In this document: one piece after another, positions 7,347-55,017 of the stretch
Numbering within the stretch: the first letter of the stretch is position 1
Layout of the letters: every line of letters begins with the position of its first letter
Source of the DNA: Roridomyces roridus
Taxonomy: Eukaryota; Basidiomycota; Agaricomycetes; Agaricales; Mycenaceae
Length of the DNA stretch: 64,000 nucleotides
Reading direction: 5' to 3'
NCBI GenBank assembly: GCA_029378245.1
Contig: JARKIF010000052.1
Coordinates: 124,001 to 188,000 of the forward strand
The notes under the pieces: generated by a model
The model's database searches: none
The model's input: the letters and a program-made list of their open reading frames with translations, nothing else
Told to the model about the DNA's origin: nothing
Translations under genes and position numbers: made by a program

Positions 7347-7629
7347 TGTTGTGAAAAATTGGTCGGTCTGGACTCTGCTTCGTTCGAGTCCGTCAGACGA
7401 TTCTCATGCCCACTCTTAGGTTCGCTTTCTTGATGACACTTCGTTACTCTTCAACTCTCTTGTATGAAATCCCACTAGAATCATATCTGACTGTGCCTCG
7501 ATTTTCCTTGCCAACGAGCAGGTTGAGATTCGAGGACCTGCGAAACGAGACTGAACCGTGCGTCAAAAACTGACTTTCAAGGGAGATTGGGGGCGGGGTG
7601 AGAGTGCGCTAGCGCGCAGAGTGACGTCA
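7347..7629. other. Spacer between broken F-box gene and inverted-repeat arm
   Basis: Nothing recognised. Similarity to the intact kinase copy at 53.7-55.0 kb fades out near 7620-7630, which sets the outer edge of the left duplication arm. Confidence 0.5.
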
Positions 7630-8216
7630 CCCTGCTTTGGGTCGTACGATTCGCTTTCGGTGCCGAGGGTGACGGACTCGGGGGACATGTAGGAGGGACT
7701 GCCGCCGGCGGTCTTTGGGGAGGAGTCGATAGCCAGACCGAAGTCGGCGACGCGGATATCGGTTCCCTGTGGGCTGCATAGGATATTTTCGGGTTTAAGA
7801 TCACGGTGGGAGATGCCGCTTTCGTGAAAGAATCGTACGACGTCGAGCAGCGGAAGAAAAACGCAGCGGACGAGGGCATCATTTTGTTGAAAGGTGACCG
7901 CCGGCGGAGAGTTCGAGGACGACGAAAAGGTGGTTTTGGTAGCGAAACGATGGTATAGGGTGATAACATTTGGATGAACACTGCATCGGGTGTGAAGGGC
8001 GATTTCGCGCTCGTCGTGTGGGCACCCCTGAGCGGTTAGTGGTGAAACAGGTCCTAAACATTTAATGGCGTAAAAGGCAGGGGAGTCGGGCGGGGAGGAG
8101 AGGTCGAGGGCTTTATAAACAACTCCATAATTTCCGGCACCGAGGATTTCTGTAAGATGGAACCTGCCATCGTCGACGATTTGGTTTGTAAAGTCGGGGA
8201 GGGTGAAGCTAGACAT
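7563..8216 (-). pseudogene. Truncated, frame-scrambled Ran1-like Ser/Thr kinase
   Basis: This is the partner of the intact 439 aa kinase at 53698-55017. The first 95 or so residues match closely, including the glycine loop GAGNYGVVYK and the AIKCL lysine. A 1 nt deletion near 7946 (codons for the hinge strand) and a deletion of about 29 nt near 7890 then remove or scramble the hinge and alpha-D region. The frame returns for HRDLKPEN and VADFGLA. After the SPE motif the match ends at about residue 195 and unrelated residues lead to a stop at 7563. The hinge, the whole lower C-lobe and the tail are missing, so no active kinase is expected. Its promoter is still almost identical to that of the intact copy. 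Confidence 0.85.
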
Positions 8217-8678
8217 GGTGTAGGAAAAGCGGGTAAGAAAAGCAAGTTGAGAGCAGGAGCAAAAAGCGGTTGAAGATGTTATAGCAGAAGAGCAAGTCTA
8301 TGCAGGGTGGTGGAGAAGAACAAAAAGTGTGTTGATGAGACAAATGCCCCTGATGTCAACAAGAGCAAAGCTTCTACCTCTTCGATCGGCTGCTCGGAGC
8401 GCCTCTTCATGCGCGCCAAGTTTTGCCCGGAGACTTCTCCACGTCACCATTTCGCAGCGGTCGAGTTTAATAATAATATGGGGTGGGTCATATTGACTGA
8501 CAATCCAGATGAACCAGTTCGCACTGTCATTTGGCTTACTATCACTGAAGGTACAGTTCCCATACGATTTTAGGATCTCATGACAGCGAACTGGTTCGAT
8601 TGCGTTATTATTCCATGTTTGTTCTGGGCGGAACCGAGTCGTACATGGGCATTGCAATGGCGGCTGGAGGCAAACAGG

Positions 8679-8684
8679 TATAAA
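8679..8684 (+). promoter_or_regulatory. TATA box of left DUF6699 gene
   Basis: TATAAA lies 92 nt ahead of the proposed ATG at 8776 and is conserved in the right copy at 53230-53235. It lies between two divergently transcribed genes. Confidence 0.45.
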
Positions 8685-8775
8685 GGGTCTGTGCGCGTCC
8701 CATCTTTCTGTTCCCCACCTCACACCCCGAGCATCCTTCCATTCAAGCACCGGGTCCCATAACAGTCGGGGCACT

Positions 8776-9673
8776 ATGCCTATGAACGGTGAGGATCATT
8801 CATTTCAGGCAGCAGAGCAGGTACTTACGGCGGTCGGCGTCGGCAGAGAACGAAATGGTGGGATGGAGGACGTACAGTGCGCCCCGCAGGATGGACACGG
8901 ACACCCGACTCCCGATCCGACCCGCAGCCTCGGGCGCTTTCGAGGCCCTATCACGCTCTTCGAGTCTACCATCCCAGCGACGAGCACCGATGCCAAAGGG
9001 TGGTCCGTGCACACTCTCGTACAGCACCAGCAGATCAGATCGGTCGTACAATCAGGACCACACGGAGGCATCACACACGACACGAGCTGTAGACGCACCG
9101 ACACCGCCACATTTACTCCCATGCCCGCCAGAACGAGCGCTTAAATGCATACCTCTGCCACCGCAGGTCCCCGGAATAACGACCGTCTTGCTGCACCCTG
9201 CACTCGCAGCGGCTGGCCCTCATCTGCGCGGTGTGGACTTTGCGTCTTCGGCGGCCCAAATCCAGCGGGCTGTTGGACGACGAGTGTCAGATGAGCTCGC
9301 AACGCAGCCGGCACTCCCGTCACTCACCGTACTATCCCCACGACTGCCCTGGGCGATAACCGTCCACGGCCAATGGAGCTCATCGGGCAGAGTACTCCGC
9401 TGTGTGACTGTGTCGGACGTCTTGAGTGCTATTCATCGGGCGCTACTTCTCCTTGTCGACGAGGGACAGCTTGATACGGAGGTCGTTGGCCTTGGGATGA
9501 CGCAGAGCGGGGCCAAGTGCCCGAGAGGTGGCCATGGACGGGATGGGCTCCCGTTGACGTCAGGGTATGGCCAAGGGATGACAAGGCTGGATTTGCTGCA
9601 GGGTAAGACCAGCTTCCGGGGCCTTTCGCCGAGCGAGATGGGTTGCGATGTTTGGATTCTGGAAGTGGCATAG
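8776..9673 (+). CDS. DUF6699 domain protein (left copy)
   Basis: Proposed structure: exon 1 8776-8788 (Met-Pro-Met-Asn), a 58 nt intron 8789-8846, and exon 2 8847-9673; about 279 aa. The N-terminal 100 or so residues are basic and low complexity (MVGWRTYSAPRRMDT..). The C-terminal 160 residues show the pattern I know from DUF6699, an abundant basidiomycete family of unknown function: LHPALAAAGPHLRGVDF, LPSLTVLSPRLPWAITV, RCVTVSDVLSAIHRALLL and, near the end, TRLDLLQGKTSFRGLSP followed by CDVWILEV. The frame is identical and intact in both arms, which supports it over the opposite-strand frames. No enzymatic residues are recognised. It is divergently placed from the kinase. Confidence 0.65.
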
Positions 9674-10102
9674 TGACTGTGCTGTCTTTTTGTGGGTACG
9701 GGAACGGTAAGGATCGGACAGACAGCGTTGATAACTTGACTGTATTTGGATTATATCGTGTATTATTGGATAGTAGTAGTGAGCGGATCGGTGTCTTGAA
9801 TCAAGGCTTTTTTGGGGACGATGCTGTTGCGGTGATACCGTGGCATCCAAGGCAAATCCAGAGGTGGCCAGAGAGGGGATGGTTCTAGCAGAGAGCAGGG
9901 CAAGTTTCCAAGGTATTCCCAAGCACAGACGGTTCAGACGGCGAGAGATTGGAGAGAGAAAGCAATTGGAAAGCAACCTGCCAAATTCGGATGGGCGCAA
10001 CACGAACAAACACCCACCCTGTTACCGCGCGTCATCGAGGCTCTCTCTGCTCCTCGCTCTGATTCTGAAAACACTGACTGTCTCTCGCGTCCTCGATGCA
10101 CA

Positions 10103-12087
10103 ATGGCCTCTCGAAAATCTTTTGGCGCCTGCCGCGCCCGTCTCGCACTTGACATCAAAATCGCTCCTTGCTCTAGAAGAAGATACTCTTCAATTATCAA
10201 TATCCCGCGCGCGGACGTCTATCGTTTTGGTGCAGCAACCCAGCGCTCCACGCCTGTTTTCCGTGATCTCGAATGGACTATCAAGGCCAATGAAAGCTGG
10301 GCTGTCGTGGGCACTGGCTCGGGAGAAAAGTCCACCGTATTCGATGTGCGTGTTATGTGCGTCTATCCTCATCTAGCTTCCTGCATCCCACTAAACTGAT
10401 TCGCGTCTGGTACAGATGCTAATGGGTCACCTCCGTATTCATCCAGCACCTCCGCCTCCCGGGGGCCTGTACCCCTTCCTCTCCACGCCTGGAACGGACC
10501 CACAAAAATCGGTATCCATTGTCTCCTTTGCACATACCCGCGCCGTGGGTGGTGCTTTCTACGACTACACGGCACGCTATGGCGCCGTGCGAGAGGAGGA
10601 TCGCATTACACTTAGGGAAAGCATGTTTCCTGAAATGGTGCAAGACCTCAAATCGCAGACGCGCGTGAAGATTGAGGAAGAGAGGGAGGTGGACCACAAG
10701 CTCTTCGAGTATTTGGTGGATAAGATGGGGCTGGCACATCTCTTGGACTTGCCACGGATTGCGTTGAGTAACGGGCAGACGAGGAGGGCGAGGATACTCA
10801 AGGCGCTACTTGCCAAGCCGAGGTTGCTGCTCCTCGACGAGCCACTGAGTGCGTTTTGCTACTTTTCGTCTGCGACGCATTGCTGATTGTCCGTCTGCAG
10901 CCGGCCTGGATGTACAAAATCGAGCTACTGTGCTCGACGTGCTGCACGAGCTTCATAGCGCCAACGACCCGCATATCGTACTTGGGCTGCGGATGCATGA
11001 CCCCGTTCCGGAATGGATTACACACCTTGCGATCGTCAATGAGGGAATCGTCAAGACGGGCCCAAAGGACACGCTGAGGGAGTACCAGGCGCGCATTAAC
11101 GAGCAGGCAAAGGCAGCGCGGGATGAGCAACTCGTTTTGCGGAAAGAGGGCAAGCCGCTTGTGGAGCTGAAGAATGTCAGTGTCACGTATGGGCCTAGGA
11201 AGGTGCGGATTCAAGCTCTCTGTTGTTTCTATCTAACTTTTTTCTCTCCAGGTACTGAAGAATATTACATGGACAATCGCTGAGGGAGGGAGGTACCATC
11301 TGCAGGGATCTAACGGTTTGCCTCTTGCCCTTCCCTCGCCCGTCCCTTCTGACGTTACCCCGCAGGTTCTGGCAAGACGACCCTCCTTTCCCTCCTCACT
11401 GGCGACCATCCGCAATCATACACCCAGCTCGGACCAGAGCGGCACCTCCTCCTCTTTGGCAGTCCGCGATCCAAGATCGCTACCCCGACGCTGCACCAGA
11501 AGATTGGAGTCGTGACCCCCGAGCTGTTCGATGCCTTCCCGAGAAGGGCGCCAGGGATGACGGTGTGGGAGGTCGTGGGAACGGGCTGGGAGGGAGGGTT
11601 TGTCGGTAAGGGAATGCATGGGCTTGGGGCTGATACGGAGATGAGTGGAGAAGAGGAGGTGAAAAGACGCGCTGCCAGGGTCAGGGAGGTCATCACTGCA
11701 CTGGGGCCTACGGCTTGGCAGTCCGATGTTTCCTCCCATGCTTCTCCTGCTTCTTCTCTGGCAGACTACCTCACCCCGCTCGACTCTCTTTCGGCCTCCT
11801 TTGCGCAGCAGCGGTTCCGTGAGCTCCCCGTAGGCGCGCAGCGTATGGTTCTTCTCATGCGCGCTCTGGTAGCGCATCCACCCGTAGTGCTGCTGGATGA
11901 GGTGTGGAGTGGGATGGACGGGAGGATGGTTCGTGCTGCGAGGAGGTATTTGAGGAACGGTGGAGGTGTCAAGGCAGGGCAGGCGGTGGTGGTCATCACG
12001 CATTTGGAGGATGAGGTGCCGTGGGGAGAGGCAGATGGTGTTGAGAGGGTGCGGTTGGACGACGGGGTGTTGAGGAGCGTGGTGTAG
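10103..12087 (+). CDS. Twin-ATPase ABC protein, YDR061W/ModF-like (left copy)
   Basis: Five exons (10103-10345, 10416-10852, 10901-11202, 11252-11315, 11366-12087), all with GT..AG introns of 48-70 nt, encode about 590 aa. Two nucleotide-binding domains are present and no membrane segments. NBD1: P-loop VGTGSGEKST (the last Gly before Lys is Glu), signature LSNGQTRRARIL, Walker B RLLLLDEPLSA. NBD2: P-loop GSNGSGKTTLLSLL, degenerate signature around LPVGAQRMVLLMRAL, Walker B PPVVLLDEVWSGMDG. The architecture matches the soluble fungal ABC proteins related to yeast YDR061W and bacterial ModF. The Arg/Ser-rich first 40 residues could target mitochondria. Transport is unlikely without a membrane partner. 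A second, slightly diverged copy lies at 49828-51812. Confidence 0.8.
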
Positions 12088-12165
12088 ATGTGGAGCTAGA
12101 CTTGTGTTAGAGACCACTCCAAATTTGGAAAGACGCGTCAACAGATGACAACAAGGCCAACCTAA

Positions 12166-12755
<590 letters not shown>

Positions 12756-15106
12756 ACTCGCAGACAGTCTCTTGGTCTGGGAGAGGGTGAGTCGAATCAG
12801 TCCCTCATTGGAACCTCCCTGGCCCCCAACGCGCACAGACCACCTCACCCCTCTCCCCGCCGATGTATTCTTTCTTTCTCTGTATTCGCATTGTATGATA
12901 CGCGCCTCGACGATGGCAATGTCCACTTCTATCCCTACGCAATACATGCATTAATCCTGCTGATGTCCTGCTCGTCATCTCCACCCTCCCCGCCGTCGGC
13001 TCCGCTTGTCCAATGACTCGTTTGTTACTCGCTGCCGTGGCAGTGCCCAGCCCCTTCTCGAGCTCGTCCCCGTCGTTCTTCTCAGATATCCAAGGGTCGT
13101 GCTCGCTGGCAACGCGGCGTACGGACCACCCCTATCCCTGCTCTCGTCGCCGTGAGATATACTATTGACGGTGGCAGGTGCGATGCCACCATTTCTCTCA
13201 TCCCCCGCATGAGGTATCTTTGAGCTGTCGGCGCTGCCCTCCTCCTCGTTCCCTGTCCTTATATCCCCGCGCAGCTGCCCCATTCAACTCCATGCTGTCC
13301 GGGGCAGTGGCTGCGAGTGCGCCAGTCGACGCCGGGGCGCATCAAACGTATGTAAGCCCGCCGCCTAAATATGGTAAGATCAATTGATATGTTTGTAGGA
13401 CAAACACAGGCTTCTTCTCCACCCAAAACATTTTGTTCGAGCGCCTGGCCAGGGATCCACAGCAATAGGCACGTCAACTTCCAAACACATTCAACACCTT
13501 CGGGAGGGGGATTGCGAAGTCCCGACTCCCGACTAAGATCCGTGACGCCGTTGCGCACGGCTCCGACTGACCCGGACCACGTCGGTGCGTCAATGTGTCG
13601 GTCCCAGGTTGCTGCAGATCCGTTATCTCCCGTTGTATGGACGGGAACGGGAACGGGACGGATGGGAAATCCCTACTTTCGGTCTCGCTGATCGTTGAGT
13701 CGTTCCTGAGTCCAGAGTCCGTAATCCCATGCTATTCAATGTAGTGTGGTAGACTGAGGGGGGAACGCCGCCCACGTCCGGGAATCGCCAGTAACACAAG
13801 TGCTCATTTCATTTGCAGATTGGATTGATTCTTTAAATCGTGGTACATTTTCAGTTTCAGTTCGACGTTCATATACTCCAGATCTCCTGTAGACAAGTGA
13901 CAAAGCAGGCACTGGTTTAATGTAAGTAAATCGGCGCCGCCATTTTCTGTTCATACGTTCATTTCTGGTTTCAGATCGACGGCGAGGCCGGTCGGCGACT
14001 CTCAAAAGGTTTTTGCTTGTCAGTCATTTGGTGAAAATAATCATGGACTTCTGGTTGACTGTCTCTCGTTTCTGAATTGAACAATGACAGGCCCAGTACT
14101 CGGTGTTCGAAACACCTTCTTCGGTGCCGGTGAGCTCTCGCCGTGGATTAACAGCGGGAACCCGACATGTTGGTTGGTTGGTGATTTTCAGGTCAATGTG
14201 CAGTCCCGTCTTGGACGCCACAAACTAAACACAACTATTTGATGCAGGGCGGCATATCCAAGTTCGTCCTAGCGGCATGTCGAATTTCCTCTCTGTCGGT
14301 GAGTTCCCATCGCAAATGAATGCCAAGACATGCAAGTTCAGGTTTCATCCCGACGTCTCTTCCCGCCCAATGCGCCGGAAAACAGCGGGGCTTGTGCGAC
14401 GCTGTCGTGATTCGACTCTGGACCCTGCCCAGCGCCCTTGTACGTATTATCAGGTCCATATATAGCGCCTCTCATATTTTTATGACTGTCAAGCACTGGC
14501 AGCCACCGATGGTTCCGGCCGCTGATCTGTTGCGCCGAAGATTCAAGCAAGGGTTCAGTTCCTGCGCAATGGAAGTGAAAGCTGATACGCTGACGCGCCT
14601 CGACCTACCGTTTTCAAGCTCGCTGAAAGGATGTCGACTGAGCTGGAGACATCCATCTCCTAGCGATACGGTGATCCTTACAAAGATCCTATGCAGTGCA
14701 TTCCCGCCGTTTACGCAGTGAACCGCCTCGATGGAGTTGCAGCAACGAACAAGACACGGGAAGGAGCGATTGACGGGCTGGACCCAGGTCCCAGTTACCC
14801 AAAGTAAGCAAAATGGGGCGTCCGGCGGCGCAGACGGTCACTACTCCGATTGAACAAATCAACAGCCTCCATCCGGTTTCTGCGGCTGCCCTGGAACATT
14901 TTGACACAGACTATTACCGACAACATCGATGTCAATGCGTCGAATCTTGGTGCCACGGCCCGTTTTTCTATTGTACGTTTCAGGATATGGATTTACGGTG
15001 TACTCTGACCTGAGTCGGGGGCCCGGGGCATTTGCATCTGCTGTGTTGCTGTTTCATCGATTCATTTGCGGCCTGACCAAGCCGTCCTGACTCGACTTGA
15101 AGCCTC
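12756..15106. other. Diverged end of the duplication arm, then no supported gene
   Basis: From 12950 to 13410 there is patchy similarity to about 48330-48960, including the block at 13337-13410. No coding frame is conserved between the two. From 13411 to 15106 I see only short frames without family signatures. Confidence 0.45.
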
Positions 15107-15160: not shown

Positions 15161-17197
15161 ATGAAGATCAGCTCTACCTTCGCAAATCTTGTCCTCTGCG
15201 CTGTGGGGCTCCTGTCGGTTGCCCATGCCCAAGAGGCGCGTTCTCTACAGAAGAGGTCGACGTCACTCCTGATCAGTGAATATCTCTCTCGTTGTTCAAC
15301 CTTGCATGGCGACTGAGCGCGTTCAATCAGATCCTCCGGGGCTGCCGCAGCTGCCCACTGCCAATGCAGCGAAGGCCGCTTCTGCGTCGGCCGGTTTGAA
15401 CCTGACCGACATCCAGGGTGATATCGTGTAAGCCCCAGTTCCCCTTCACTCTGCTGGGCGAGTCCTGAATGTCAACAACAGAGTCGGGATGACCAAGAAG
15501 CAGGAGACGTTCACATTCTTCACCATCGTCGACGCACCGACATTCAAATCCAAACTGCGCTCCGAAATCCTGCCGCTCATTACCAACGCGCGCCAGATGC
15601 TCAAGAACGAGACACAGCCTGATACGCTCGTCAATATCGCGTTCTCGCAGAATGGCCTGACCACGTTGGGCATCACCGACAACCTGAATGACACTGCCTT
15701 CAAGAATGGTCAACTCAACAATTCTCAGGCTCTCGGTGACCCCGTCGGAACTCCTGACTGGCTCCCCGAATTTACTGCGGGGAATATTCACGGGGTGTTC
15801 CTATTTGCGTCGGATACGGTGGACAATGTCAATGCGACACTGGAGACTGTTACTTCCGCACTCGGGGCTAGCATCACACAAGTTTATTCTCTGCAGGCTG
15901 CCGTCCGCCCGGGCAACGAGGCGGGTCACGAGCGTGAGTCCTTTGGTATTTCCCACACTGGGTGGTACTTATACCTGACTCGCAGATTTCGGATTCTTGG
16001 ACGGTATTTCCAACCCGGCGATTCAAGGATTCGACGACACTCCTCTTCCCGGCCAGGCATCTGTCCCAGCGGGGGAGATTCTCCTCGGTGAACAGAACGA
16101 TAATGTGATTCGCCCAGACTGGGCCAAGGACGGCTCGTTCCTTGTCTTCCGCCAGCTTCAGCAGCTCGTGCCCGAGTTCAACAAGTATCTGACGGACAAC
16201 CCGATTCGCGAGCCCGCCCTGACGCCTGAGCAAGGCTCTGAGCTCCTTGGTGCGCGGATGGTGGGGCGCTGGAAGAGTGTGAGTGTGAATCCCAGTCATC
16301 TCTTCGTCGCTCACGAGTCTATAGGGAGCACCGGTCTTCTTGTCCCCGCTCGTCGACAATCCCGCCCTCGGAGCCAACAGCAGCGCCAATAACGATTTCA
16401 CATATGCCGCACCCAACAATGCGAGCCTGTAAGGGCAATACTTTCATTTCAAACACACATGATTCACCAGAATTCTAGATGCCCCTTCTCTGCGCACATC
16501 CGGAAGACCCGTCCTCGTGCTGACTTGGGTGCAGAGTCGAAGAACACCCATCACATCCTCCGGGGTGGCATCCCGTATGGACCGGAGGGTCAGTTTTGTC
16601 TTGATCCCAGTACTAGGAGGTCAATTGAACTGATCCATTTTTTCGTCAGTCACGACTGCTGAAGCATCGTCCAACACTTCTACGATCGAGCGTGGTCTTG
16701 CGTTTGGTTCGTTTTCGCTCAACTGTGCTTCAGCTTACACACTAATGACATTATCTATCTATTTAGTCGCATACCAGTCGAACATTGGGGCCGGCTTCCA
16801 GTTCTTGCAGCAGACTTGGGCCAATAACCCAAACTTGTAAGCTGATTCCCCGTTCATTTCACTTCTTCCCAGTCTAATTTATCACCCAATAGCTTCGTCA
16901 AGGGTACGACCGGATTTGACCCCATCATCGGTGAGCTTTTCTCTTCCGATCGAAAATCGAATGGTTTCTCATGCGATTTTCTTCCAGGTGCCAATCACGG
17001 CAATCCGCGTTGGACCGAGGGTAACCTCGACCCCACCATTCCTACGAGGAACTTCACTATTATAACTGGTCAGCTACTTGATACCTTGGAGCCTGTTATG
17101 AGTACTGACGTGTTGGATAGATTTCATCGTCTCGAGGGGAGGAGAGTACTTCTTCTCGCCGTCGCTCTCGGCGATTGCTAACAAGATCTCTGTTTGA
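15161..17197 (+). CDS. Dye-decolorizing peroxidase (DyP1), secreted
   Basis: Eleven exons: 15161-15275, 15331-15427, 15482-15933, 15986-16278, 16325-16428, 16479-16588, 16650-16706, 16767-16836, 16893-16930, 16988-17068, 17121-17197. They give about 500 aa. A signal peptide (residues 1-23) and a short propeptide with KR are followed by the mature enzyme. The family motif GFLDGISNP carries the catalytic distal Asp (GXXDG). CPFSAHIRKTRPR carries the heme-ligating His and ILRGGIPYG the distal Arg. The C-terminus ends SRGGEYFFSPSLSAI. By family knowledge it uses H2O2 to oxidise dyes and lignin model compounds in the extracellular space (EC 1.11.1.19). All key residues are present. It is one of three paralogues within 32 kb. 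Confidence 0.93.
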
Positions 17198-24408: not shown

Positions 24409-24415
24409 TATAAAA
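24409..24415 (+). promoter_or_regulatory. TATA box of the laccase-like gene
   Basis: TATAAAA lies 41 nt ahead of the ATG at 24456. Confidence 0.65.
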
Positions 24416-24455
24416 GAGAGACCCGGGGCGAACTAATGGCAAGCAACCCGACAAA

Positions 24456-27099
24456 ATGCAGTTACTTGCATCCCTGGTGCTCTTGGCTATCCTCAAAGCG
24501 CGCTCTGCGTCTGCGGCGGTGAGGGAATACACCCTCGACGTCGTCAACGCCCCCGTCGCTCCCGATGGCTTTACTCGAAGTGCGTTTGGACTGGCTTGAA
24601 AGAACGTTTGACTGACTGATGACCTGTGTAGTTGGCATCCTGGCTAATGGAACGTAAGCGCTAGGTTGACTTGTAGGCCAACGTTGGTGCTGACTCCAAT
24701 GCCCAGCTTCCCCGGTCCAGTCCTCACCGCTAACAAGGGCGACACGTTCAAGGTGACCTTCAACAATAAGCTCGTGAGTGGACTTGACTGCCGCTGCTTG
24801 AATTGAACTGACTTGCAACGCAGACGGATGGTTCGATGCGCCTGTCGACTGCCATCGTACGTTAGCTTCGCCTTGCTTTCCGTGTTGCAGTTGATGAATT
24901 TGAGCTCAGGACTTTGACGGTCTCCTGTCCGAAACTTCCTCCATCTACGACGAGGGATCGCCTTTTGTCACGTATGTATCCTCCGTATCGCGCCGCTCGG
25001 GGCTTACACAACTTGCAGCCAATGCCCCTTCGGTCCCGGCACGTCTTACACATACGGTCAGTGGGCTAGCTATGTTCACTTCATCATGAACTCATTTCTA
25101 TCATAGAGCTTCCGCTGTACGTCGACGACCAGGCATAGTTGGATCTGCGCTAACTCTCTTGAAGCGGCGACCAAACTGGGACCTCTTGGTATCACAGTTC
25201 TCTCAGTCTCCAGTACGCTGACGGGCTCCGGGGTGCGGTCGTCATCTATGGTTTGTGACTCTTTCGCTTGATCTCCCAGATGGACTGAACGAAACATAGA
25301 CCCGGAGGACCCACTCGCGCATTTGTATGATGTGGACGACGAGAGCACGGTGCGTGCCCTTCTTCTCTTCAGGCCCAATATATATTCAACCCGATCATGT
25401 AGATCATAACCGTGGGCGACTGGTGGCACAACACCTCCGTCTCGGGCTTGATTTCCTACAACGCGACCCAGATCATTCCGTGCGTTTCCCCCTTCCCTTC
25501 TTGACACCAATACTGATCCCAAGAAAAGCGTGCAAGACAGCGGTCTCGTCAACGGCAAGGGCCGCTTCGTCAACGGACCCGAAGTTCCGTACGCGGTGAC
25601 GACCGTCAAGACTGGGACCCGTTACCGGTTCCGTGTGATCAACAGTGAGTTTTTCGCGTCTCCTGATTCGTCTTGATGGACTAAATCAATGGCAGTCTCG
25701 GCCCGCTCGGACATCGCCTTCTCCATCGACAACCGTGCGTTTTTTCTTCTCTATCCACCGAGCAGATTGAATTGATGGGGTGTGGCATCAGATACCATGA
25801 CCGTGCGTGCCTCTCTCTCCTAATCTATAAATGTACCGACCTCGCGCCCAGATTATCGAAGCCGACGGCACTGAAACCGTACCCATGGAAGTCAATCTCA
25901 TTGATATCATGCCTGGCCAACGGTACTCCGTCATCGTGCGTCTCGTCTCTCTCTTCCTTCCTCTCTCTCAATGACTCACATGCGACACCAGGTCACCGCG
26001 AATCAAGCCGTAGGCAACTATTGGATCAGTGAGTTGCCTTGCCTGGGACTGTCTGAAGAGGGCTGACAGTGGATGAAGACGCCTTCCCCGATGGTGGTAA
26101 CCTGGCTTTCAACCTCGGGTTCAACGTGCGTCTTCCTCTGGATTTCTGTCCTTATATTGATCAAGCGATCCACAGCCGCTTCTCAGTCGCGGCATCCTGC
26201 GCTACGTGGGTGCCCCCGCCGTGGAACCTACGGCCCCGATGACAGGAGGCCCGACGGGTGCAGCTGCGAATGAGTTGCAGGAGCACTTGTTGACGCCCTT
26301 GATTGCTATGGCGGTGGGTGTTGCCGCGGCTCTTCTCATCTGATTCTGACTTGCTCGTCCTTGCAGGCCCCCGAGCCCGATTTCATCCTCAGCTTCCAGA
26401 CCTCCATGCCTGTCGGCGAAACTATCTGGCTCCTCAACGGAACGCAGTACCAGCCCCCGGTGGTTCCTACTCTGGTCAAAATCTTGGACGGAGCGAGCCA
26501 GCCCATCGATTTCAACAAGACCGAGAACACCTTCATTTTCCCTCAGAATAAAACGGTTGAAATCAACTTCTTGCCCGAGTGAGTCTTTGGTTCTTTTGGG
26601 AGATTTCCTTGTGCTGACGAGAGGTAGCCCGACCAACGAATTGCATCGTACGTCTCGAGTTTTCTTCCTCCGCTGATGCTTGACTGACGCAAACGCGCAG
26701 CCTTCCATTTGCACGGAAACAGGTTCTTCGTGGTGAAATCGAACGAGTCGGACATCATCAACACCGTCAACCCGATTAGGCGCGATGTCCGTACCCCATC
26801 CTTTCTTCCCTGTAACTTTAACTGACACTGCATCTAGGTCTCAGCCAAGGGCAACGGTGGGACCATTCTCCGGTTCACGACGGAGAAGCCCGGTCCCTGG
26901 TTCTTCCACTGTGAGCAACTAGACTGGCCTACCTAATCGAGTCTCACCCAACCTAGGTCACATTTTCTGGCACTTCTGGGCCGGCCTGGGATCTGTTATG
27001 GTCGCGTCCCCCGAGGGTACCCGTCAGCAGGTCCACCCCGACAAGGCGTGGGATGACTTGTGCCCGGCGTACAATGCTTTGCCCGTGGACCAGCAGTGA
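24456..27099 (+). CDS. Laccase-like multicopper oxidase with altered copper site
   Basis: A multi-exon gene (about 15 exons, introns about 50 nt) encoding roughly 510 aa with signal peptide [20 protein letters not shown]. Three cupredoxin domains are recognised by [66 protein letters not shown] and GPWFFHCHIFWH. Motif L3 (HPFHLHG, codons at 26644-26646 and 26701-26717) and L4 (HCH, with Cys split by an intron at 26910/26957) are intact, so the type-1 copper ligands are present (two His and Cys; axial Leu). Motif L1, normally HWHG, reads DFDG at 24909-24917. L2, normally HSH, reads HSS at 25193-25201. Three of the eight His of the trinuclear site are gone. The disulfide pair normally at YCDG and ISCDP is lost on both sides (Ala, Ala). 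The frame shows no decay. Normal oxygen reduction is doubtful. Confidence 0.88.
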
Positions 27100-29521: not shown

Positions 29522-31284
29522 TCAAACAGTGAACGTATTGGCGAGCGCAGAGAGCGACGGGGAGAAGAAGTACTCTCCGCCCCGGGATACCACGAAATCA
29601 GTGATGAGTGTGATGGTACGCGAAGGATCCGTCGGGTCGAGACCGCCTACGGTACGATTCGCTCCCTTGTTGGCGCCGATGATGGGATCAAAGCCAGTAT
29701 TCTGCTCGACGAATCTATGGAGATGGATGTTAGCTGACATTCCACGTGTGAGCCAGGTTGGTAACTCACCCGGTATTATCGGCCCAGAATCTCTGCAGGA
29801 ACTGGAATCCGTTTCCGATGCTCGATTGGTAGGACACGAATGCAAGACCACGCTCTGTGGAGGTCGTGTTGGAGGCCGCTTCGCTGTCGGAAACTGTTCC
29901 ACAAGTTATCATCCAAAGTTCAACCATGCAAACTCGAATGGACGTACCTTCAGGGCCGTACGGAATCCCACCGCGCAAGATATGACGGCCAGTGTTCTCC
30001 GGCAGTCCAAGATCAGCACGAGGACGTGTCTTGCGGATGTGAGCCGAGAAGGGGCACCGGCTCTGATCCGTGCTGCTCGAGGTACTTGATCCGTTCAGCG
30101 CGTAGGTAAAGTTGTTGTTCCGCGTCGGGTCCGCGCCGAGTGCCGGGTCGTCGGCAAGAGGACTCAAGAATACCGGGGCGCCCTAAAAAGAAAATAATTG
30201 AACTCGGAGCTCAAATCGAACCTTGATAAACTCACGCTCTTCCATCGACCGACCATCCGCGCACCGAGCAAATCCGAGCCCTGCTGGTCCGTAAACCCTG
30301 GTGCGCGAATCGGGTTGTCCGTCAAGAACTTGTTGAACTCAGGCACGAGCTGTTCTAGCTGGCGGAAGGCCAAGAATGAGCCACCGATAGCCCACGGGGG
30401 GCGCTGGGAGATGAACGGATCGCCCGTCTCGCCGACGATAATCTCGCCAGGGGGGACCGAGGCTTGGCCTGGGAGCGGCGAATCGTCGAAACCTTGGATC
30501 GCAGGGTTGGAAATGCCGTCGAGGAAACCAAAGTCTGTTGGTTGCATCAATGTCAGTATTCAACTAAATAGCATGGGACTCACGCTCGTGCCCCTGCTCG
30601 GCACCCGGCCGCGCCGCCGCCTGCAGAGTATATATCTGCGTGATACTATCCCCCAGCGCGGTCGTTACGGTATTCACCGTGCTCGCCACATTAGCATCCG
30701 TGTCCGACGCCAGCAAGAACACGCCGTGGATGCTGGTTCCAACGAACTGAGAAACCCAGTGGCCAGTGCCGGGGTCGCCGAGGTTGCCGGCATCAGCCAG
30801 CTGCCCGCCGGTAAACGCGCCGTCGCCGAGCGTATCACTAACGTTGAGCGCGCCGAGCCCAGTGTGCGAGAACGCTACGTTGACGAGGGTGTTGGGCTGC
30901 GTCGAGTTTTTGGTCATTTGCATCGCGGTGGTGATCAGGGGCAGAACGCCAGAGCGGAGTTTGGATTTGAATGATGGCGCATCCGCGATGCCGAAGAAGA
31001 GGAACGTCTCTCGATTCTTCGTCATGCCCGTTCTTTTTGAGATTCAGGACTTGGCAGTAAGGCAGAGTGAAGGGAACTTACACGATATCACCCTGGATGT
31101 CGGTCAGGTTCAACCCGACAGTGGCGGCGGCGGCTGTGGCGGCGCTTGCTGTGGGTAGCTTGGGCAGCCCAGGGGGACTGATGAGGAGCGACGACGTCCT
31201 CCGGGCCTCCAAATGCGCGTCATGAGCAGAGGCTAGCGTCACGGCGCAAACGATGAGACTGGCAAAGGAGGAAGTGAGCTTCAT
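29522..31284 (-). CDS. Dye-decolorizing peroxidase (DyP2), secreted
   Basis: The start at 31284 gives a signal peptide and short propeptide (MKLTSSFASLIVCAVTLASA). Exons then cover VNVAFSHTGLGAL, the GFLDGISNP motif (catalytic Asp), CPFSAHIRKTRPR (heme His), ILRGGIPYG (distal Arg) and the C-terminal SRGGEYFFSPSLSAL. The length is about 500 aa. Compared with DyP1 and DyP3 several introns are cleanly missing: the first one (ISPPGLP is continuous) and those in the last third (GLAFVSYQ, IIGANKG and LITDFVV are continuous). Activity should match DyP1: extracellular, H2O2-dependent oxidation of dyes and phenolics. A TATA-like box lies upstream at 31334-31340. Confidence 0.92.
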
Positions 31285-44775: not shown

Positions 44776-46778
44776 TCAAGTGGAGAGTGTAGTAGCAATC
44801 GCCGAAAGCGGAGGCGAGAAAAAGTACTCTCCACCCCTCGAGATGACGAAATCTATGCGTTACCATCGTCAGTATACATAATGGGAAGGATTCAAGGACA
44901 CAGCTTACCGTTCACGAGGGTGAAGTTCCTCGTAGGGTTGATGGGATCGAGGTTACCCTCAGTCCAACGCGCAGCACCGTGGTTGGCACCTGGAAGCGAT
45001 GAGATGTCATTTAATTCTCGTTGGAAAAAGAAGGCTAACCGACGACGGGATCGAATCCGGTGTTATTCTTGACGAAGCTGTTCATGATGAATATGGAGGA
45101 AACGAAACGAAAGGGACGACTTACAAGTTGGGGTTATTCATCCAGGTCTGCTGCAAGAACTGGAAGCCAGTCACAATGTTCGACTGGTATGCGGCTTTAT
45201 AGATGCATCAGCTGACAAGTGGAGAGAACAAGCTTGAGAGCGAAAACGAACTGAACGCCATGCCACGCTCGATGGTAGTTTTATTTGACGCTGCCTCGGC
45301 AGCCGTGACTGGCGAAAGAATGGATCAGTTTGACTGGTCTTCGCTGCGCGATGAGAACCCACCCTCTGGGCCATAGGGAATGCTACCACGAAGGATGTGA
45401 TGGGTGTTCTTCGATTCGGCGCCCAGGTCGGCACGAGGACGGTTCTTGCGGATGTGTGCAGAGAAGGGGCATCTAATCGCGGTGAATCACGTGTGCTTGG
45501 GGTTGAAACTATCGCGCTTACAGGGTCGCATTGTTGGGTGCGGTATATGTGAAATCGTTATTCGCACTGCTGTTGGCTCCGAGCGCCGGATCGTCGGCGA
45601 GCGGGGAAAGGAAGACTGGTGCGCCCTAGAGGAAGTTGATTCGTGAGCAACTAATAAATGGCTGGGATCAACACTCACGCTCGGCCAGCGTCCAATCATC
45701 CGCGCACCGAGAAGGTCAGCACCTTCCTGAACCGTAAGACCGGACTCGACAATCGGGTTGTCCGTCAGATATTTGTCGAACTCGGGTACGAGTTGCTCGA
45801 GCTGGCGGAAGACAAAGAACGAGCCGTCCTTGGCCCAGGCCGGACGAGTCATGGTATCGTTCACTTCACCGAGGAGAATCTCTCCCGTTGGGACGGATGC
45901 CTGGCCAGGGAGCGGGTTGTCGTCAAAGCCTTGAATCGCCGGGTTGGAAATCCCGTCCAAGTATCCGAAATCTGGCGTTCAAATGTTAACATTCCTCTGT
46001 AATGTATGAGAAGTGGGGAAGTACTCACGCTCGTGGCCAACCTGGTTGCCCGGGCGGGCTAGAGCCACCAGTGTATAAACTTGTGTGAAGCTGGTTCCAA
46101 GCGCGGCAGCCACGTTTGCCAGCGACGCATTGACGCTGGTCTGCGTGTCCGATGCTAACAGGAACACCCCGTGAATGGTTCCCGTAGTGAACTGAGGTAC
46201 CCAATTCGTGGTTCCAGGATCCCCGAGAGTTTGAGCATTGGCGAGTTGGCCCGACTGGAACGCAGTGTCATTGAGGTTGTCGGTGATACCCAATGCGGTC
46301 AGGCCAGTCTGTGAGAACGCAATATTGACGAGCGTATCAGGCTGTGTCTCATTCGCGAGCATCTGTTCAGCGTTGGTAATGAGTGGCAGAATGTCGGAGC
46401 GAAGTTTGGATTTGAATGTGGTTGCGTCGGCAATGGAGAAGAAGACGAAGGTCTCGAAAAGCTTGCTCATGCCCACCCTTTTTTATGGCATTCAGGATTC
46501 GGGAGCAAGGTAGAGTGAAGGGGAGCTTACACAATATCGCCTTGAATATTAGTCAAGTTCAAGCCGGCTGCTGCAGCTGCTTCTTTAGCTGCTTCGGCAG
46601 TGGGCAACTTGGGCAGCCCCGGCGGATCTAGTCGAACGGGATCAGCCACCAGGCAAGAACAACCAGAGATATATTCACTGATCAGGATTGAGGTCGTCTT
46701 CTTTTGCTGGCCATGAACGGCAGTCGCCAGCCCGAGAGCGCAGACGAGGAGACTCGCAAAGGTGGAGGTGATCTTCAT
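44776..46778 (-). CDS. Dye-decolorizing peroxidase (DyP3), secreted
   Basis: The start at 46778 gives a signal peptide (MKITSTFASLLVCALGLATA). The first intron lies in the same place as in DyP1 and still resembles it. Exons encode LVNIAFSQTGLTALG, HFGYLDGISNP (catalytic Asp), CPFSAHIRKNRPRADLG (heme His), ILRGSIPYG (distal Arg) and the C-terminal SRGGEYFFSPPLSAI. The length is about 500 aa. It is closest to DyP1 in sequence and exon structure, which suggests a recent duplication. All catalytic residues are present, so it should be an active extracellular peroxidase. The stop TGA lies at 44776-44778, just after a relic of the MLKL-like gene on the other strand. Confidence 0.9.
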
Positions 46779-48329: not shown

Positions 48330-49164
48330 TCTTATGTTTGTCGAACAAATATAGCAATGATCTTCCATATTTGGACGGCGGGCTTACATACGCTTGATGC
48401 GCCCCGCCGTATGGCGGCGCTGAACCACAGACTAGATAGCGCTGAGGGAAAAAGCGGGGGTGGCAGAGGTACATGCACAGCTCACGATGAGGACCGCGGC
48501 GTCGGCGGCACAGAGACGCTTCACGCCGGTGAGAAGGGAAATAGTAATACTTGGTCTCGCAGCCCACTCCGTACTTAACCTCCTTACAGAACAGAACTCA
48601 GCTCACTGGCCGCGAGCAGAAGCGGAGATGGATCTCGTCCGCACGCGGCGCGGCCATCGAGGGCGGCCGCTGGATGTCTCAGAACAGCGATGGCAGACGA
48701 AGGGCGGTGCGCAAGACGACGAGGAGAGATACAAGAGGGATAGTCGGCATCGCATTCGCCCCGTCGCCACCCACCAGGCAGCGACGCTGGGTGCGAAGTC
48801 AAAGAGCGTAGGGCGCGTCTGTGCCTAGCGTTACCAGCGAGGACAGAAAAACGACGCGACGGCCTAGGCATTGCCAAAAGCAGCGAGAAACAGAGGAGTC
48901 ATTGGAGCAGCGGAGCAGCGGAGCCGGCGACGGGGAGGGCGACGACGAGCAGGACATCGGCAGGATTAATGCATATATTGCGTAGGGATAGAAGTGGACA
49001 TGGCCATCGTCGAGGCGCGTATCATACAATGCGAATACAGAGAAACAAAGAATACATCGGCCGGCAGAGGGGTTAGGTGGTCTGTGCGCGTTGGGGGTCA
49101 GGGAGGTTCCAATGAGGGACTGATTCGACTCACCCTCTCCCAGACCAAGAGACTGCCTGCGAGT

Positions 49165-49754
<590 letters not shown>

Positions 49755-49827
49755 TTAGGTTGGCCTTGTTGTCACTTGTTGACGCGTCTTTCCAAATTTG
49801 GAGTGGTCTCTATACACAAGTCCACGT

Positions 49828-51812
49828 CTACACCACGCTCCTCAACACCCCGTTGTCCAACCGCACCCTCTCAACACCATCTGCCTCATCCCACGGCACC
49901 TCATCCTCCAAATGCGTGATGACCACTACCGCCTGCTCCGCCTTGACACCTCCACCGTTCCTCAAGTACCTCCTCGCAGCACGAACCATCCGACCGTCCA
50001 TTCCACTCCAGACCTCATCCAGCAGCACTACGGGTGGATGCGCTATCAGAGCGCGCATGAGAAGAACCATACGCTGCGCGCCTACGGGGAGGTCACGGAA
50101 CCGCTGCTGCGCAAAGGAGGCCGAAAGAGAGTCGAGCGGGGCGGGGTAGGCTGCTGGCGAAGACGCAGGAGAAGCGGGCGGGGAAACAAGAGCGTCTGAA
50201 TCCCACGCCGTAGGCCCCAGTGCAGTGATGACCTCCCTGACCCTGGCAGCGCGTCTTTTCACCTCCTCATCTCCACTCATCTCCGTATCAGCCCCAAGCC
50301 CATGCAATCCCTTACTGACAAACCCTCCCTCCCAGCCCGTTCCCACGACCTCCCACACCGTCATCCCTGGCGCCCTTCTCGGGAAGGCATCGAACAGCTC
50401 GGGGGTCACGACTCCAATCTTCTGGTGCAGCGTCGGGGTAGCGATCTTGGATCGCGGACTGCCAAAGAGGAGGAGGTGCCGCTCTGGTCCGAGCTGGGTG
50501 TATGATTGCGGATGGTCGCCTGTGAGGAGGGAAAGGAGGGTCGTCTTGCCAGAACCTGCGGGGTAACGTCAGAAGGGACAGGCGAGGGAAGTGCAAGAGG
50601 CAAACCGTTAGATCCCTGGAGATGGTACCTCCCTCCTTGAGCGATTGTCCAAGTGATGTTCTTCAGTACCTGCAGAAGGACATTAGATACGAGAAACGAC
50701 AAAGAGAATACACACCTTCCTAGGCCCGTACGTGACACTGACATTCTTCAGCTCCACAAGCGGCTTTCCCTGTTCCCGCAAAACGAGTTGCTCATCCCGC
50801 GCTGCCTTGGCCTGCTCGTTAATGCGCGCCTGGTACTCCCTCAGCGAGTCCTTTGGGCCTGTCTTGACGATTCCCTCATTGACGATCACAAGATGCGTGA
50901 TCCATTGCGGAACGGGGTCATGCATCCGCAGCCCAAGGACGATATGCGGGTCGTTGACGCTATGAAGCTCGTGGAGGACGTCGAGCACAGTGGCTCGATT
51001 CTGTACATCCAGGCCGGCTGTAAACAGACAATCGGCAGTCCGCCGGAGACGAAAAGTAGGACGCACTCAGTGGCTCGTCGAGGAGAAGCAACCTCGGCTT
51101 GGCAAGTAGTGCCTTTAGTATCCTTGCCCTCCTCGTCTGCCCATTGCTTAATGCAATCCGTGGCAAGTCCAAGAGATGCGCCAGCCCCATCTTATCCACC
51201 AAATACTCGAAGAGCTTGTAGTCCACCTCCCTCTCTTCCTCAATCTTCACGCGCGTCTGCGATTTGAGGTCTTGCACCATCTCAGGAAACATGCTTTCCC
51301 TAAGTGTAATGCGATCTTCCTCTCGCACGGCGCCATAGCGTGCCGTGTAGTCGTAGAAAGCACCGCCCACGGCACGGCTATGTGCAAAGGAGACAATGGA
51401 TACCGATTTTTGTGGGTCCGTTCCAGCCGAGGAGAGGAAGGGGTAGAGGCCTCCGGGAGGCGGAGGTGCTGGATGAATACGGAGGTGACCCATTAGCATC
51501 TGTGCCAAACGCGAATCAGTTTAGTGGGATGCAGGAAGCCAGATGAGGATAGACGCACACAGCACGCACATCGAATACGGCGGACTTTTCTCCCGAGCCA
51601 GTGCCCACGACGGCCCAGCTTTCGTTTGCCCTGATAGTCCATTCGAGATTACGGAAAACGGGCGTGGAGCGCTGGGTTGCTGCACCAAAACGATAGACGT
51701 CCGCGCGCGGGATATTGATAATTGAAGAGTATCTTCTTCTAGAGCAAGGAGCGATTTTGATGTCAAGTGCGAGACGGGCGCGGCAGGCGCCAAAAGATTT
51801 TCGAGAGGCCAT
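49828..51812 (-). CDS. Twin-ATPase ABC protein, YDR061W/ModF-like (right copy)
   Basis: The mirrored five-exon gene starts at 51812 and is open throughout. It keeps the same two NBDs. In NBD1 the P-loop reads VGTGSGEKSA: the Gly-to-Glu change is shared with the left copy, and the Ser/Thr after Lys-Ser is Ala here. Signature LSNGQTRRARIL and Walker B RLLLLDEPLSA are conserved, and NBD2 P-loop and Walker B are conserved. A linker before the NBD2 signature differs by several residues and two extra codons (SPPASPASSPAAYPAPL). NBD2 therefore probably carries the ATPase activity. Both copies appear usable. Confidence 0.8.
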
Positions 51813-52240
51813 TGTGCATCGAGGACGCGAGAGACAGTCAGTGTTTTCAGAATCAGAGCGAGGAGCAGAGAGAGCCTCGATGACGCGCGGTAACAGGGTG
51901 GGTGTTTGTTCGTGTTGCGCCCATCCGAATTTGGCAGGTTGCTTTCCAATTGCTTTCTCTCTCCAATCTCTCGCCGTCTGAACCGTCTGTGCTTGGGAAT
52001 ACCTTGGAAACTTGCCCTGCTCTCTGCTAGAACCATCCCCTCTCTGGCCACCTCTGGATTTGCCTTGGATGCCACGGTATCACCGCAACAGCATCGTCCC
52101 CAAAAAAGCCTTGATTCAAGACACCGATCCGCTCACTACTACTATCCAATAATACACGATATAATCCAAATACAGTCAAGTTATCAACGCTGTCTGTCCG
52201 ATCCTTACCGTTCCCGTACCCACAAAAGACAGCACAGTCA

Positions 52241-53138
52241 CTATGCCACTTCCAGAATCCAAACATCGCAACCCATCTCGCTCGGCGAAAGGCCCCGGAA
52301 GCTGGTCTTACCCTGCAGCAAATCCAGCCTTGTCATCCCTTGGCCATACCCTGACGTCAACGGGAGCCCATCCCGTCCATGGCCACCTCTCGGGCACTTG
52401 GCCCCGCTCTGCGTCATCCCAAGGCCAACGACCTCCGTATCAAGCTGTCCCTCGTCGACAAGGAGAAGTAGCGCCCGATGAATAGCACTCAAGACGTCCG
52501 ACACAGTCACACAGCGGAGTACTCTGCCCGATGAGCTCCATTGGCCGTGGACGGTTATCGCCCAGGGCAGTCGTGGGGATAGTACGGTGAGTGACGGGAG
52601 TGCCGGCTGCGTTGCGAGCTCATCTGACACTCGTCGTCCAACAGCCCGCTGGATTTGGGCCGCCGAAGACGCAAAGTCCACACCGCGCAGATGAGGGCCA
52701 GCCGCTGCGAGTGCAGGGTGCAGCAAGACGGTCGTTATTCCGGGGACCTGCGGTGGCAGAGGTATGCATTTAAGCGCTCGTTCTGGCGGGCATGGGAGTA
52801 AATGTGGCGGTGTCGGTGCGTCTACAGCTCGTGTCGTGTGTGATGCCTCCGTGTGGTCCTGATTGTACGACCGATCTGATCTGCTGGTGCTGTACGAGAG
52901 TGTGCACGGACCACCCTTTGGCATCGGTGCTCGTCGCTGGGATGGTAGACTCGAAGAGCGTGATAGGGCCTCGAAAGCGCCCGAGGCTGCGGGTCGGATC
53001 GGGAGTCGGGTGTCCGTGTCCATCCTGCGGGGCGCACTGTACGTCCTCCATCCCACCATTTCGTTCTCTGCCGACGCCGACCGCCGTAAGTACCTGCTCT
53101 GCTGCCTGAAATGAATGATCCTCACCGTTCATAGGCAT
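52241..53138 (-). CDS. DUF6699 domain protein (right copy)
   Basis: Mirror of the left gene: exon 1 53126-53138, intron 53068-53125, exon 2 52241-53067. The translation is identical to the left copy over the whole long frame, which points to very recent duplication or conversion. The domain pattern (LPWAITV, VTVSDVLSAIH, LLQGKTSFRGLS) is as described for the left copy. The function of the family is unknown. Confidence 0.65.
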
Positions 53139-53229
53139 AGTGCCCCGACTGTTATGGGACCCGGTGCTTGAATGGAAGGATGCTCGGGGTGTGAGGTGGG
53201 GAACAGAAAGATGGGACGCGCACAGACCC

Positions 53230-53235
53230 TTTATA
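53230..53235 (-). promoter_or_regulatory. TATA box of right DUF6699 gene
   Basis: Mirror of 8679-8684. Confidence 0.45.
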
Positions 53236-53697
53236 CCTGTTTGCCTCCAGCCGCCATTGCAATGCCCATGTACGACTCGGTTCCGCCCAGAACAAACATG
53301 GAATAATAACGCAATCGAACCAGTTCGCTGTCATGAGATCCTAAAATCGTATGGGAACTGTACCTTCAGTGATAGTAAGCCAAATGACAGTGCGAACTGG
53401 TTCATCTGGATTGTCAGTCAATATGACCCACCCCATATTATTATTAAACTCGACCGCTGCGAAATGGTGACGTGGAGAAGTCTCCGGGCAAAACTTGGCG
53501 CGCATGAAGAGGCGCTCCGAGCAGCCGATCGAAGAGGTAGAAGCTTTGCTCTTGTTGACATCAGGGGCATTTGTCTCATCAACACACTTTTTGTTCTTCT
53601 CCACCACCCTGCATAGACTTGCTCTTCTGCTATAACATCTTCAACCGCTTTTTGCTCCTGCTCTCAACTTGCTTTTCTTACCCGCTTTTCCTACACC

Positions 53698-55017
53698 ATG
53701 TCTAGCTTCACCCTCCCCGACTTTACAAACCAAATCGTCGACGATGGCAGGTTCCATCTTACAGAAATCCTCGGTGCCGGAAATTATGGAGTTGTTTATA
53801 AAGCCCTCGACCTCTCCTCCCCGCCCGACTCCCCTGCCTTTTACGCCATTAAATGTTTAGGACCTGTTTCACCACTAACCGCTCAGGGGTGCCCACACGA
53901 CGAGCGCGAAATCGCCCTTCACTCCCGCTGCAGTGCTCATCCAAATGTTATCACCCTATACCATCGTTTCTGCTACCAAAACCACCTTTTCGTCGTTCTC
54001 GAGCTCTCCGCCGGCGGGCACCTTTTTGACGCCGTGTCGGCCGGCACCTTTCACCAAAACGATTCCCTCGTCCGCAGCGTTTTCCTTCAGCTGATCGACG
54101 TCGTCCGATTTTTTCACGAAAGCGGCATCTCCCACCGCGATCTGAAACCCGAAAACATCCTCTGCAGCGCACAGGGCACCGACATCCGCGTCGCTGACTT
54201 CGGTCTGGCTGTCGACTCCTCCTCCTCCTCCTCCCCACCCCCAAAGTCCGCCGGCGGCAGTCCCTCCTACATGTCCCCCGAGTCCGTCACCCTCGGCTCC
54301 GAAAGCGAATCGTACGACCCAAAGCAGAGTGACGTCTGGGCGCTCTGCGTCATCTTGCTCAATATGATGTCGGGTTTATACCCCTGGCGAAGGGCCCACG
54401 ACTCCGACGCGGGGTTCAACGCGTTCCTCACTGATGCAGATTATTTGCGGAGTACCTTTCCCATCTCCGACCAACTCAACGAGCTCCTCGAGCGTTGTTT
54501 TCGTCCCGTCCCTCGCACGCGTCCCACCCTCCTCCAACTACGTACTGAATTCGTTGCGCTTGAGAAGCTGTTCGCCACCACGGACGACGCAGTGCCGATT
54601 ATACCCCAACCACTGCCCCTGGCTGCGTGCCACTCGACGCCATTATCGTCTTGTGTCTCGTTCAACTTTACCGATTATGCACCCTCGTCATCGTCGTCGT
54701 CACGGCCCTCCACCCTCGCGACGTCGCTGTCCTTTGAACCGAGCATGTTCCAGGGCGAAAGTCAATTTCATTCACGGCCGACGTTGGTATCCTCGCCCCG
54801 ATACAGTGGCCTTCCACTCCCGGCCCCTCGTTGGCAGGATACCATTGCGCGCCTACGAGCGAGCGAGCCCTGCGTTCCGCTCGTGTGCACGCCGGCGCTG
54901 ACGGTGCCAACCAAAGTGAAGACGAAGAATCCGATTAAGCGGTTGTTACGGTGGTTGAAGAAGACGAGGAGAGGGAGCGTTGTTTATCCATGCACCGAGT
55001 ATTCGTCTAACCCATAA
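53698..55017 (+). CDS. Ran1/Sks1-like Ser/Thr protein kinase, intact
   Basis: Single exon, 439 aa. The kinase domain covers residues about 15-285: glycine loop GAGNYGVVYK, AIKCL (catalytic Lys), VVLELSAGGHLFDAV (hinge), HRDLKPENIL (catalytic loop), VADFGLA (DFG), GGSPSYMSPE (activation loop end) and DVWALCVILLNMMSGLYPW. The pattern and N-terminus resemble the fungal Ran1/Vhs1/Sks1/Ksp1 kinases linked to nutrient and meiosis control; this placement is inference. The C-terminal 150 residues are Ser/Pro-rich, ending in a basic cluster (KNPIKRLLRWLKKTRRGS). It is divergent from the DUF6699 gene over a shared promoter region. The left-arm copy is a pseudogene. Confidence 0.88.
   Translation: MSSFTLPDFTNQIVDDGRFHLTEILGAGNYGVVYKALDLSSPPDSPAFYAIKCLGPVSPLTAQGCPHDEREIALHSRCSAHPNVITLYHRFCYQNHLFVVLELSAGGHLFDAVSAGTFHQNDSLVRSVFLQLIDVVRFFHESGISHRDLKPENILCSAQGTDIRVADFGLAVDSSSSSSPPPKSAGGSPSYMSPESVTLGSESESYDPKQSDVWALCVILLNMMSGLYPWRRAHDSDAGFNAFLTDADYLRSTFPISDQLNELLERCFRPVPRTRPTLLQLRTEFVALEKLFATTDDAVPIIPQPLPLAACHSTPLSSCVSFNFTDYAPSSSSSSRPSTLATSLSFEPSMFQGESQFHSRPTLVSSPRYSGLPLPAPRWQDTIARLRASEPCVPLVCTPALTVPTKVKTKNPIKRLLRWLKKTRRGSVVYPCTEYSSNP

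Follow-up and report, generated by a model that had tools for sequence, protein, structure and literature searches.

Laccases that lack part of the trinuclear copper site have been described in shiitake and in Amylostereum areolatum. The shiitake proteins Lcc9, Lcc13, and Lcc14 are reported to have no His-Trp-His in motif L1 and to carry Gln for the L2 His while keeping the type-1 ligands, and a different affinity for type-2/type-3 (T2/T3) copper was suggested for them (PMC4573974). Shiitake Lcc8 is described with the same L1 and L2 losses, again with the type-1 ligands kept (PMC6947313). Both Lcc8 and Lcc9 were cloned and are not marked 'perfectio sensu stricto' in the text covered here (PMC3683064). 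In A. areolatum, the L1 His are described as missing from AaLac10 and AaLac12 (PMC7700495). The first-pass annotation left it open whether such a protein had been described before; as regards the loss of copper His, it is already in print (PMC4573974, PMC6947313, PMC7700495).

At the protein level, Lcc13 was purified from the medium and sequenced N-terminally, which gave the predicted N-terminus of a secreted protein (PMC4573974). Lcc13 was also recovered from a partially purified, ABTS-oxidising fraction (P2-2); the same purification yielded Lcc6, in fraction P2-1 (PMC10130320). Because P2-2 was only partially purified and Lcc6 was present in P2-1, the ABTS activity may be due to contamination. 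Lcc16, Lcc17, and the heterodimer POXA3 are assigned to subfamily 2 (PMC3129051).

Within the literature covered, the motif oddity is in print only as a remark in gene-family surveys. A search for a laccase with DFDG returned one paper, which seems unrelated from its title, and no carboxylate-bearing or His-poor multicopper-oxidase cluster was recognised from titles and abstract openings, most subscription journals being outside the scope of both searches. The literature covered offered no metal content, spectrum, or activity measured on a pure clade member. To this we add how broad the group is, that it has a single origin on a tree, that its Asp and Arg are near-invariant, and that the copper change is separate from the loss of a Cys pair, together with a tie between a DFDG sequence and the secreted shiitake protein from the ABTS-active fraction.

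Gene model and copper-site motifs

The DNA analysed, called the window, is a stretch of 64,000 nucleotides from Roridomyces roridus (contig C450, 124001-188000, of a 90.8 Mb assembly). The assembly seems to hold two haplotypes in part, as it contains pairs of loci that are 98-99% alike. Spliced alignment placed a laccase-fold gene in the window (Table 1), and its product matches the deposited R. roridus protein P0001 letter for letter. The 21 introns measure 46-57 bp each and have GT and AG borders; exon 16 starts at 26079. The first-pass annotation noted normal splice sites but counted about 15 exons. It also recognised the DFDG motif but placed it at 24909-24917, and position 24909 falls on the final base of the AG acceptor. 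The protein has a hydrophobic N-terminal start that is probably a signal peptide, and the protein is probably secreted.

Table 1. Features of the laccase-fold gene, in window coordinates
Feature	Position	Strand	Remarks
Laccase-fold gene	24456..27099	+	22 exons, 524 aa plus stop; spliced alignment
Candidate TATA box TATAAAAG	24409..24416	+	~40 bp 5' of the ATG; read from sequence
53-bp intron adjoining DFDG	24857..24909	+	position and phase common to 11/12 canonical HWHG loci of this genome that were compared
L1, Asp-Phe-Asp-Gly for His-Trp-His-Gly	24910..24921	+	protein 83-86; opens exon 5; aligns with HWHG of the laccase structure 9gly
L2, His-Ser-Ser for His-Ser-His	25193..25201	+	protein 129-131
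YADG	25214..25225	+	Ala at the C117 position
NISARSD, exons 11/12	25641..25712	+	Ala at the C205 position; Arg at substrate-pocket position 206
L3, HPFHLHG, exons 19/20	26644-26647 + 26701-26717	+	all three His present; Asn after HLHG
L4, HCHIFWH, exons 21/22	26907-26910 + 26957-26973	+	type-1 Cys and His and both type-3 His present; D of HCHID replaced by F

The laccase fold, proposed from the sequence in the first pass, held up in the structural model: the predicted structure has three cupredoxin domains (pLDDT 93.7) and reaches a Foldseek TM-score of 0.89 against solved laccases. The reading of the motifs was also correct. L2 is HSS, L3 and L4 are intact, and five of the eight His of the trinuclear cluster are present, three having gone with DFD in L1 and HSS in L2; on this feature the protein departs from laccases sensu stricto. 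The type-1 copper ligands H424, C478, and H483 are all in place. The second L1 Asp, Asp85, stands at a type-3 ligand position. After HLHG, where the window protein has Asn, canonical laccases have His. Ligand and pocket positions such as 64, H109, C117, C205, 206, H398, and H458 follow the Trametes versicolor laccase numbering.

An inverted duplication of 5.5 kb (95.6% identity) occupies 7623-13053 and 48861-54336 of the window, with its centre near 31 kb. Protein kinase and DUF6699 matches lie in or overlap its arms, and the laccase-like gene lies between them. Three DyP-type peroxidase matches are found around the laccase-like gene (15251-17180, 30225-31182, and 44793-46703); the outer two are inverted copies (77%) that are symmetric about the ~31 kb centre, and the third is at the centre. 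Contig C35, of the other haplotype, has three DyP matches in the same order. A genomic link between the DFDG gene and DyP was considered and rejected: among the five other loci of this type, one (L015) is 31 kb from a DyP match and four have none on the contig or one more than 1 Mb away. A small tandem array of direct repeats (period ~250 bp, 85-92% identity) lies at 57801-58631.

Copies, relatives, and origin of the DFDG group

A DNA search of the same genome recovered L014, the other haplotype of the gene (97.8% identity when gaps are left out), along with paralogues at 72-77%. DFDG-type sequences occupy six loci (window/L014, L015, L016/L018, L017, L019, and L053). L1 reads DFDG at each except L017, where it is DFEG, and L2 reads HSQ or HSS. 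In L017 and L053, Thr replaces the type-2 His of L3 (HPFTLHG), so that H398 is lost too at two of the six. Among 20 loci cut from the genome, which are part of the laccase-like matches, 19 carry HWHG and one (L053) DFDG; the 19 include several haplotype pairs, and the L069 model has a stop, so the number of canonical genes is below 19. One locus, L070 (G000:C13:713500-719000), encodes a laccase with full HWH and HSH that has no C117-C205 Cys pair and is a member of the Lcc16/Lcc17 clade. The L014 allele (G000:C35:1533614-1536313) carries a 52-nt, T-rich, intron-like insertion in exon 18, a length that is not a multiple of three. If the part from the first GT through the last inserted base were excised, four surplus bases would remain; the insertion may mark a broken allele or be an unusual, very young intron.

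Spliced alignments showed that L015, L017, and L053 share 20, 21, and 15 of the window gene's 21 introns. Apart from the intron before L1, the canonical loci share few introns with it (0-4 of 21 per locus), so the gene structure of the DFDG group is largely its own. We then have dN/dS, estimated by the Nei-Gojobori method, for three sets of pairs: 0.15-0.27 for the 21 pairs among L013-L019, 0.05-0.12 for the seven pairs that involve L053, at a dS close to saturation, and 0.04-0.14 for eight pairs of canonical laccases of the same genome. The first pass had favoured selection over decay, and the values for all 28 pairs of DFDG-type copies (0.05-0.27) agree with it. They show purifying selection on these copies, and dN/dS somewhat above that of the eight canonical pairs suggests that it is slightly relaxed.

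To describe conservation we used 159 relatives, the best 120 of 1529 matches to the window protein and 39 new ones from the best 120 of 1482 matches to a divergent member; they are the nearest relatives by construction. L1 reads [DNS][FLY][DE]G in all of the best 120 of 1529 matches, and HWHG in none of those. Among the 159 listed, position 66 is Asp in 155 and Glu in three of 158 readable rows, and position 64 is D (103), N (48), S (5), or G (2). H109 is present in 151/156, and position 111 is mostly Q (124) or E (21), with others. The His of L3 are kept almost throughout (H395 159/159, H398 154/159, H400 157/159), as are the residues of L4 (H452, C453, and H454 155/157 each, H458 157/157, axial Leu 156/157). 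Arg occupies position 206 in 158/158 readable listed relatives. The whole set of H109, H395, H398, H400, H452, C453, H454, H458, and Asp or Glu at 66 is present in 142/159. In the other 17 it is broken, by gaps or doubtful gene models in some and by apparent substitutions in others (H109 to Tyr or Arg, H398 to Thr or Arg).

The listed relatives come from many Agaricales, from Vararia minispora (Russulales) and Ramaria rubella (Gomphales), and from Heterobasidion, Stereum, and Amylostereum, likewise Russulales. Within the Agaricomycetes, the DFDG clade spans Agaricales, Russulales, and Gomphales. There is also a link to shiitake: the lcc13 primers given in PMC10130320 encode RNLNQN and LRYKGA, and two of the 279 proteins compared contain both peptides, P0044 from L. 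raphanica and P0086 from L. edodes. These two are DFDG proteins, and the shiitake one, P0086, has HSQ at L2.

We built a tree of 51 chosen proteins with the motif columns removed and with a distant multicopper oxidase, L001, as the only outgroup. Rows were admitted at alignment lengths of 490-580 and identities under 70% or 68%. Six others were hand-picked, and P0077 was omitted; AaLac10, AaLac12, and a sequence that is certainly Lcc13 are outside the tree. A clade conserving the DFDG-type motif had been proposed as a check in the first pass, and in this tree all 28 Asp-bearing rows, including P0032 (Lcc8), fall into one clade with support 100/97. The tree has one change at position 66 (His to Asp) and one at C117, on different branches. 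Most simply, then, the DFDG clade would have a single origin from a canonical laccase.

The Lcc16/Lcc17 clade bears on the Cys pair. It was found with L070 as the query (best 120 of 4092 matches), and HWHG is present in 111/120 and HSH in 108/120 of the matches listed; the other rows are mostly gaps or odd gene models, with a few single-residue variants (HWQG, HWYG, HAH, HCH). None of the 120 listed rows has Cys at 117 or 205. As sister of the DFDG clade, it received an SH-aLRT of 90 in a quick tree, was unresolved in a careful tree, and was not rejected by the AU test (p 0.51). The exchanges of the DFDG group relative to it are D77 to mostly E, H402 to mostly N, M, or Q, D456 to mostly F, and Y/F206 to R. 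The first pass had seen correctly that both Cys of the window protein are replaced by Ala, and had taken this matched loss as a mark of selection rather than decay. As a mark of selection together with the copper change it is rejected, because the Lcc16/Lcc17 clade is without the pair and yet keeps its copper His: the pair is also absent from full-copper laccases, so its absence says nothing on the copper change. Since the Cys change occurred once, on another branch than the change from His to Asp, the pair may even be a gain elsewhere and not a loss. The ferroxidases Mco1 and Fet3 are also described as lacking the L2 Cys (PMC7700495).

A rebuilt pocket and its possible function

The simplest reading of the conserved residues would be a metal-binding pocket with a carboxylate ligand, without type-2 copper, and fed by the type-1 site. 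We favor, with a probability of about 0.48, a copper protein of laccase fold that is probably secreted, whose type-1 copper would feed a rebuilt trinuclear pocket and which would still be active as an extracellular oxidoreductase. The sequences show a carboxylate (Asp85) at one type-3 position of the pocket, mostly Gln or Glu (here Ser) at another, and Asp, Asn, Ser, or Gly in place of one of the two type-2 ligands. The type-2 copper would be lost, because position 64 is D, N, S, or G and H398 is gone as well in L017 and L053. The remaining site (Asp85, His129, and His479 on one side, His429 and His477 on the other) may still bind one or two metal ions and still take electrons from the type-1 copper, the Cys-His bridge being kept in the sequence. 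Such an oxidoreductase would probably be slower than laccase and would act on other substrates; its place of action may be the advancing edge of the mycelium, as may also be true of shiitake Lcc13. An Arg that is invariant in the substrate pocket points to such other substrates, possibly acidic or anionic donors; ABTS is anionic. That a type-2-free Asp site of this kind (Asp, His, His and His, His, Gln/Ser), fed by type-1 copper, still activates oxygen or peroxide seems to us unlikely. Against an active oxidoreductase we count the 52-nt insertion of L014, the 17 of 159 rows with a broken ligand set, and the slightly raised dN/dS. H452 and H454, moreover, may be kept for the type-1 site only.

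With three of eight trinuclear ligands gone, a type-2 site left with one His or none, and type-1 ligands that are near invariant, the protein could instead be a secreted type-1 copper protein that does not reduce oxygen and serves as an electron shuttle or as a metal binder or buffer. In a pure type-1 electron carrier, however, drift of the other pocket residues would be expected, and H109, H398, H400, and the Asp are mostly kept, beyond what such a carrier should need. Lcc13, moreover, was recovered from a fraction with ABTS activity, albeit one only partially purified. We regard this reading, which the first pass had raised, as possible but doubtful.

Heterodimeric basidiomycete laccases exist, POXA3 with its small protein among them. 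The DFDG proteins might likewise be silent laccase-fold subunits or decoys that bind or regulate active laccases or other wall proteins: POXA3, the heterodimer, is placed in subfamily 2 (PMC3129051), and many canonical laccases co-exist with them in this genome (the 19 of 20 loci with HWHG, some of them haplotype pairs). We consider this improbable, as no evidence of complexes was found and the residues of the metal pocket would then be free to drift, which most do not. That DFDG reflects decay of a paralogue, an error in sequencing, or an overlooked HWHG exon is scarcely credible, and for the whole clade as good as refuted: the frame-shifting insertion of L014 (unless unusually spliced) and the mildly raised dN/dS face an open 22-exon frame under purifying selection, no alternative exon was seen in the 53-bp intron before DFDG, and the motif recurs in the other haplotype, in five other loci, and in 158/158 readable listed relatives.

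An all-His trinuclear cluster is held essential to multicopper oxidases, and here a clade of mushroom proteins has swapped part of it for a near-invariant Asp, with the electron entry site and most of the pocket left in place. A shiitake member is a secreted protein with strong expression at the advancing mycelium. Either a rebuilt site can still carry out oxygen chemistry, or the laccase look-alikes that mushrooms secrete serve some other purpose. Should the type-2-free Asp site activate oxygen or peroxide after all, it would stand as a functional substitute for the all-His cluster, and metals other than copper would be possible in it. There is also a warning in these sequences: some mushroom genes filed as laccase may not be laccases.

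Comparison with described systems

FtsP/SufI is a bacterial protein with the multicopper-oxidase fold that has lost its copper sites. Like the window protein it has the fold without a complete trinuclear cluster, but the profile match between them is weak and far below the cut-off, and the window protein differs in keeping the type-1 ligands and five trinuclear-site His. With canonical basidiomycete laccases (PDB 9gly, 1kya) it shares the three cupredoxin domains, the type-1 site, L3, and L4, but three of the eight cluster His and positions 206 and 456 are replaced. The Coprinopsis cinerea Lcc16/Lcc17 clade, the nearest canonical clade in the quick tree, has the same domains and is likewise without the C117-C205 pair. 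Unlike the window protein, it has the prevailing HWHG and HSH counted above, Tyr or Phe at 206 in 108/120 listed rows, and HCHID.

The closest likeness is to the His-poor members of subfamily 2 (Lcc8, Lcc9, Lcc13, Lcc14, AaLac10, and AaLac12), a group into which the window protein fits with its L1 HWH replaced and its type-1 ligands intact. AaLac10 and AaLac12 are also described as missing the L1 His pair, with Val for the L2 Cys and a B4-B5 loop without Cys and Asp/Glu, a further likeness to the window protein (PMC7700495); as known from the match lists, their L1 reads NFDG (P0090, P0274) and not DFDG. The shiitake proteins Lcc8, Lcc9, Lcc13, and Lcc14 are described, like the window protein, as having no HWH in L1, the second L2 His replaced, and the type-1 ligands kept, and Lcc9, Lcc13, and Lcc14 as having Asn for the His after L3 as well. 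The window protein, at ~60% identity to Lcc8, differs from these shiitake members in carrying Ser in L2 where they carry Gln.
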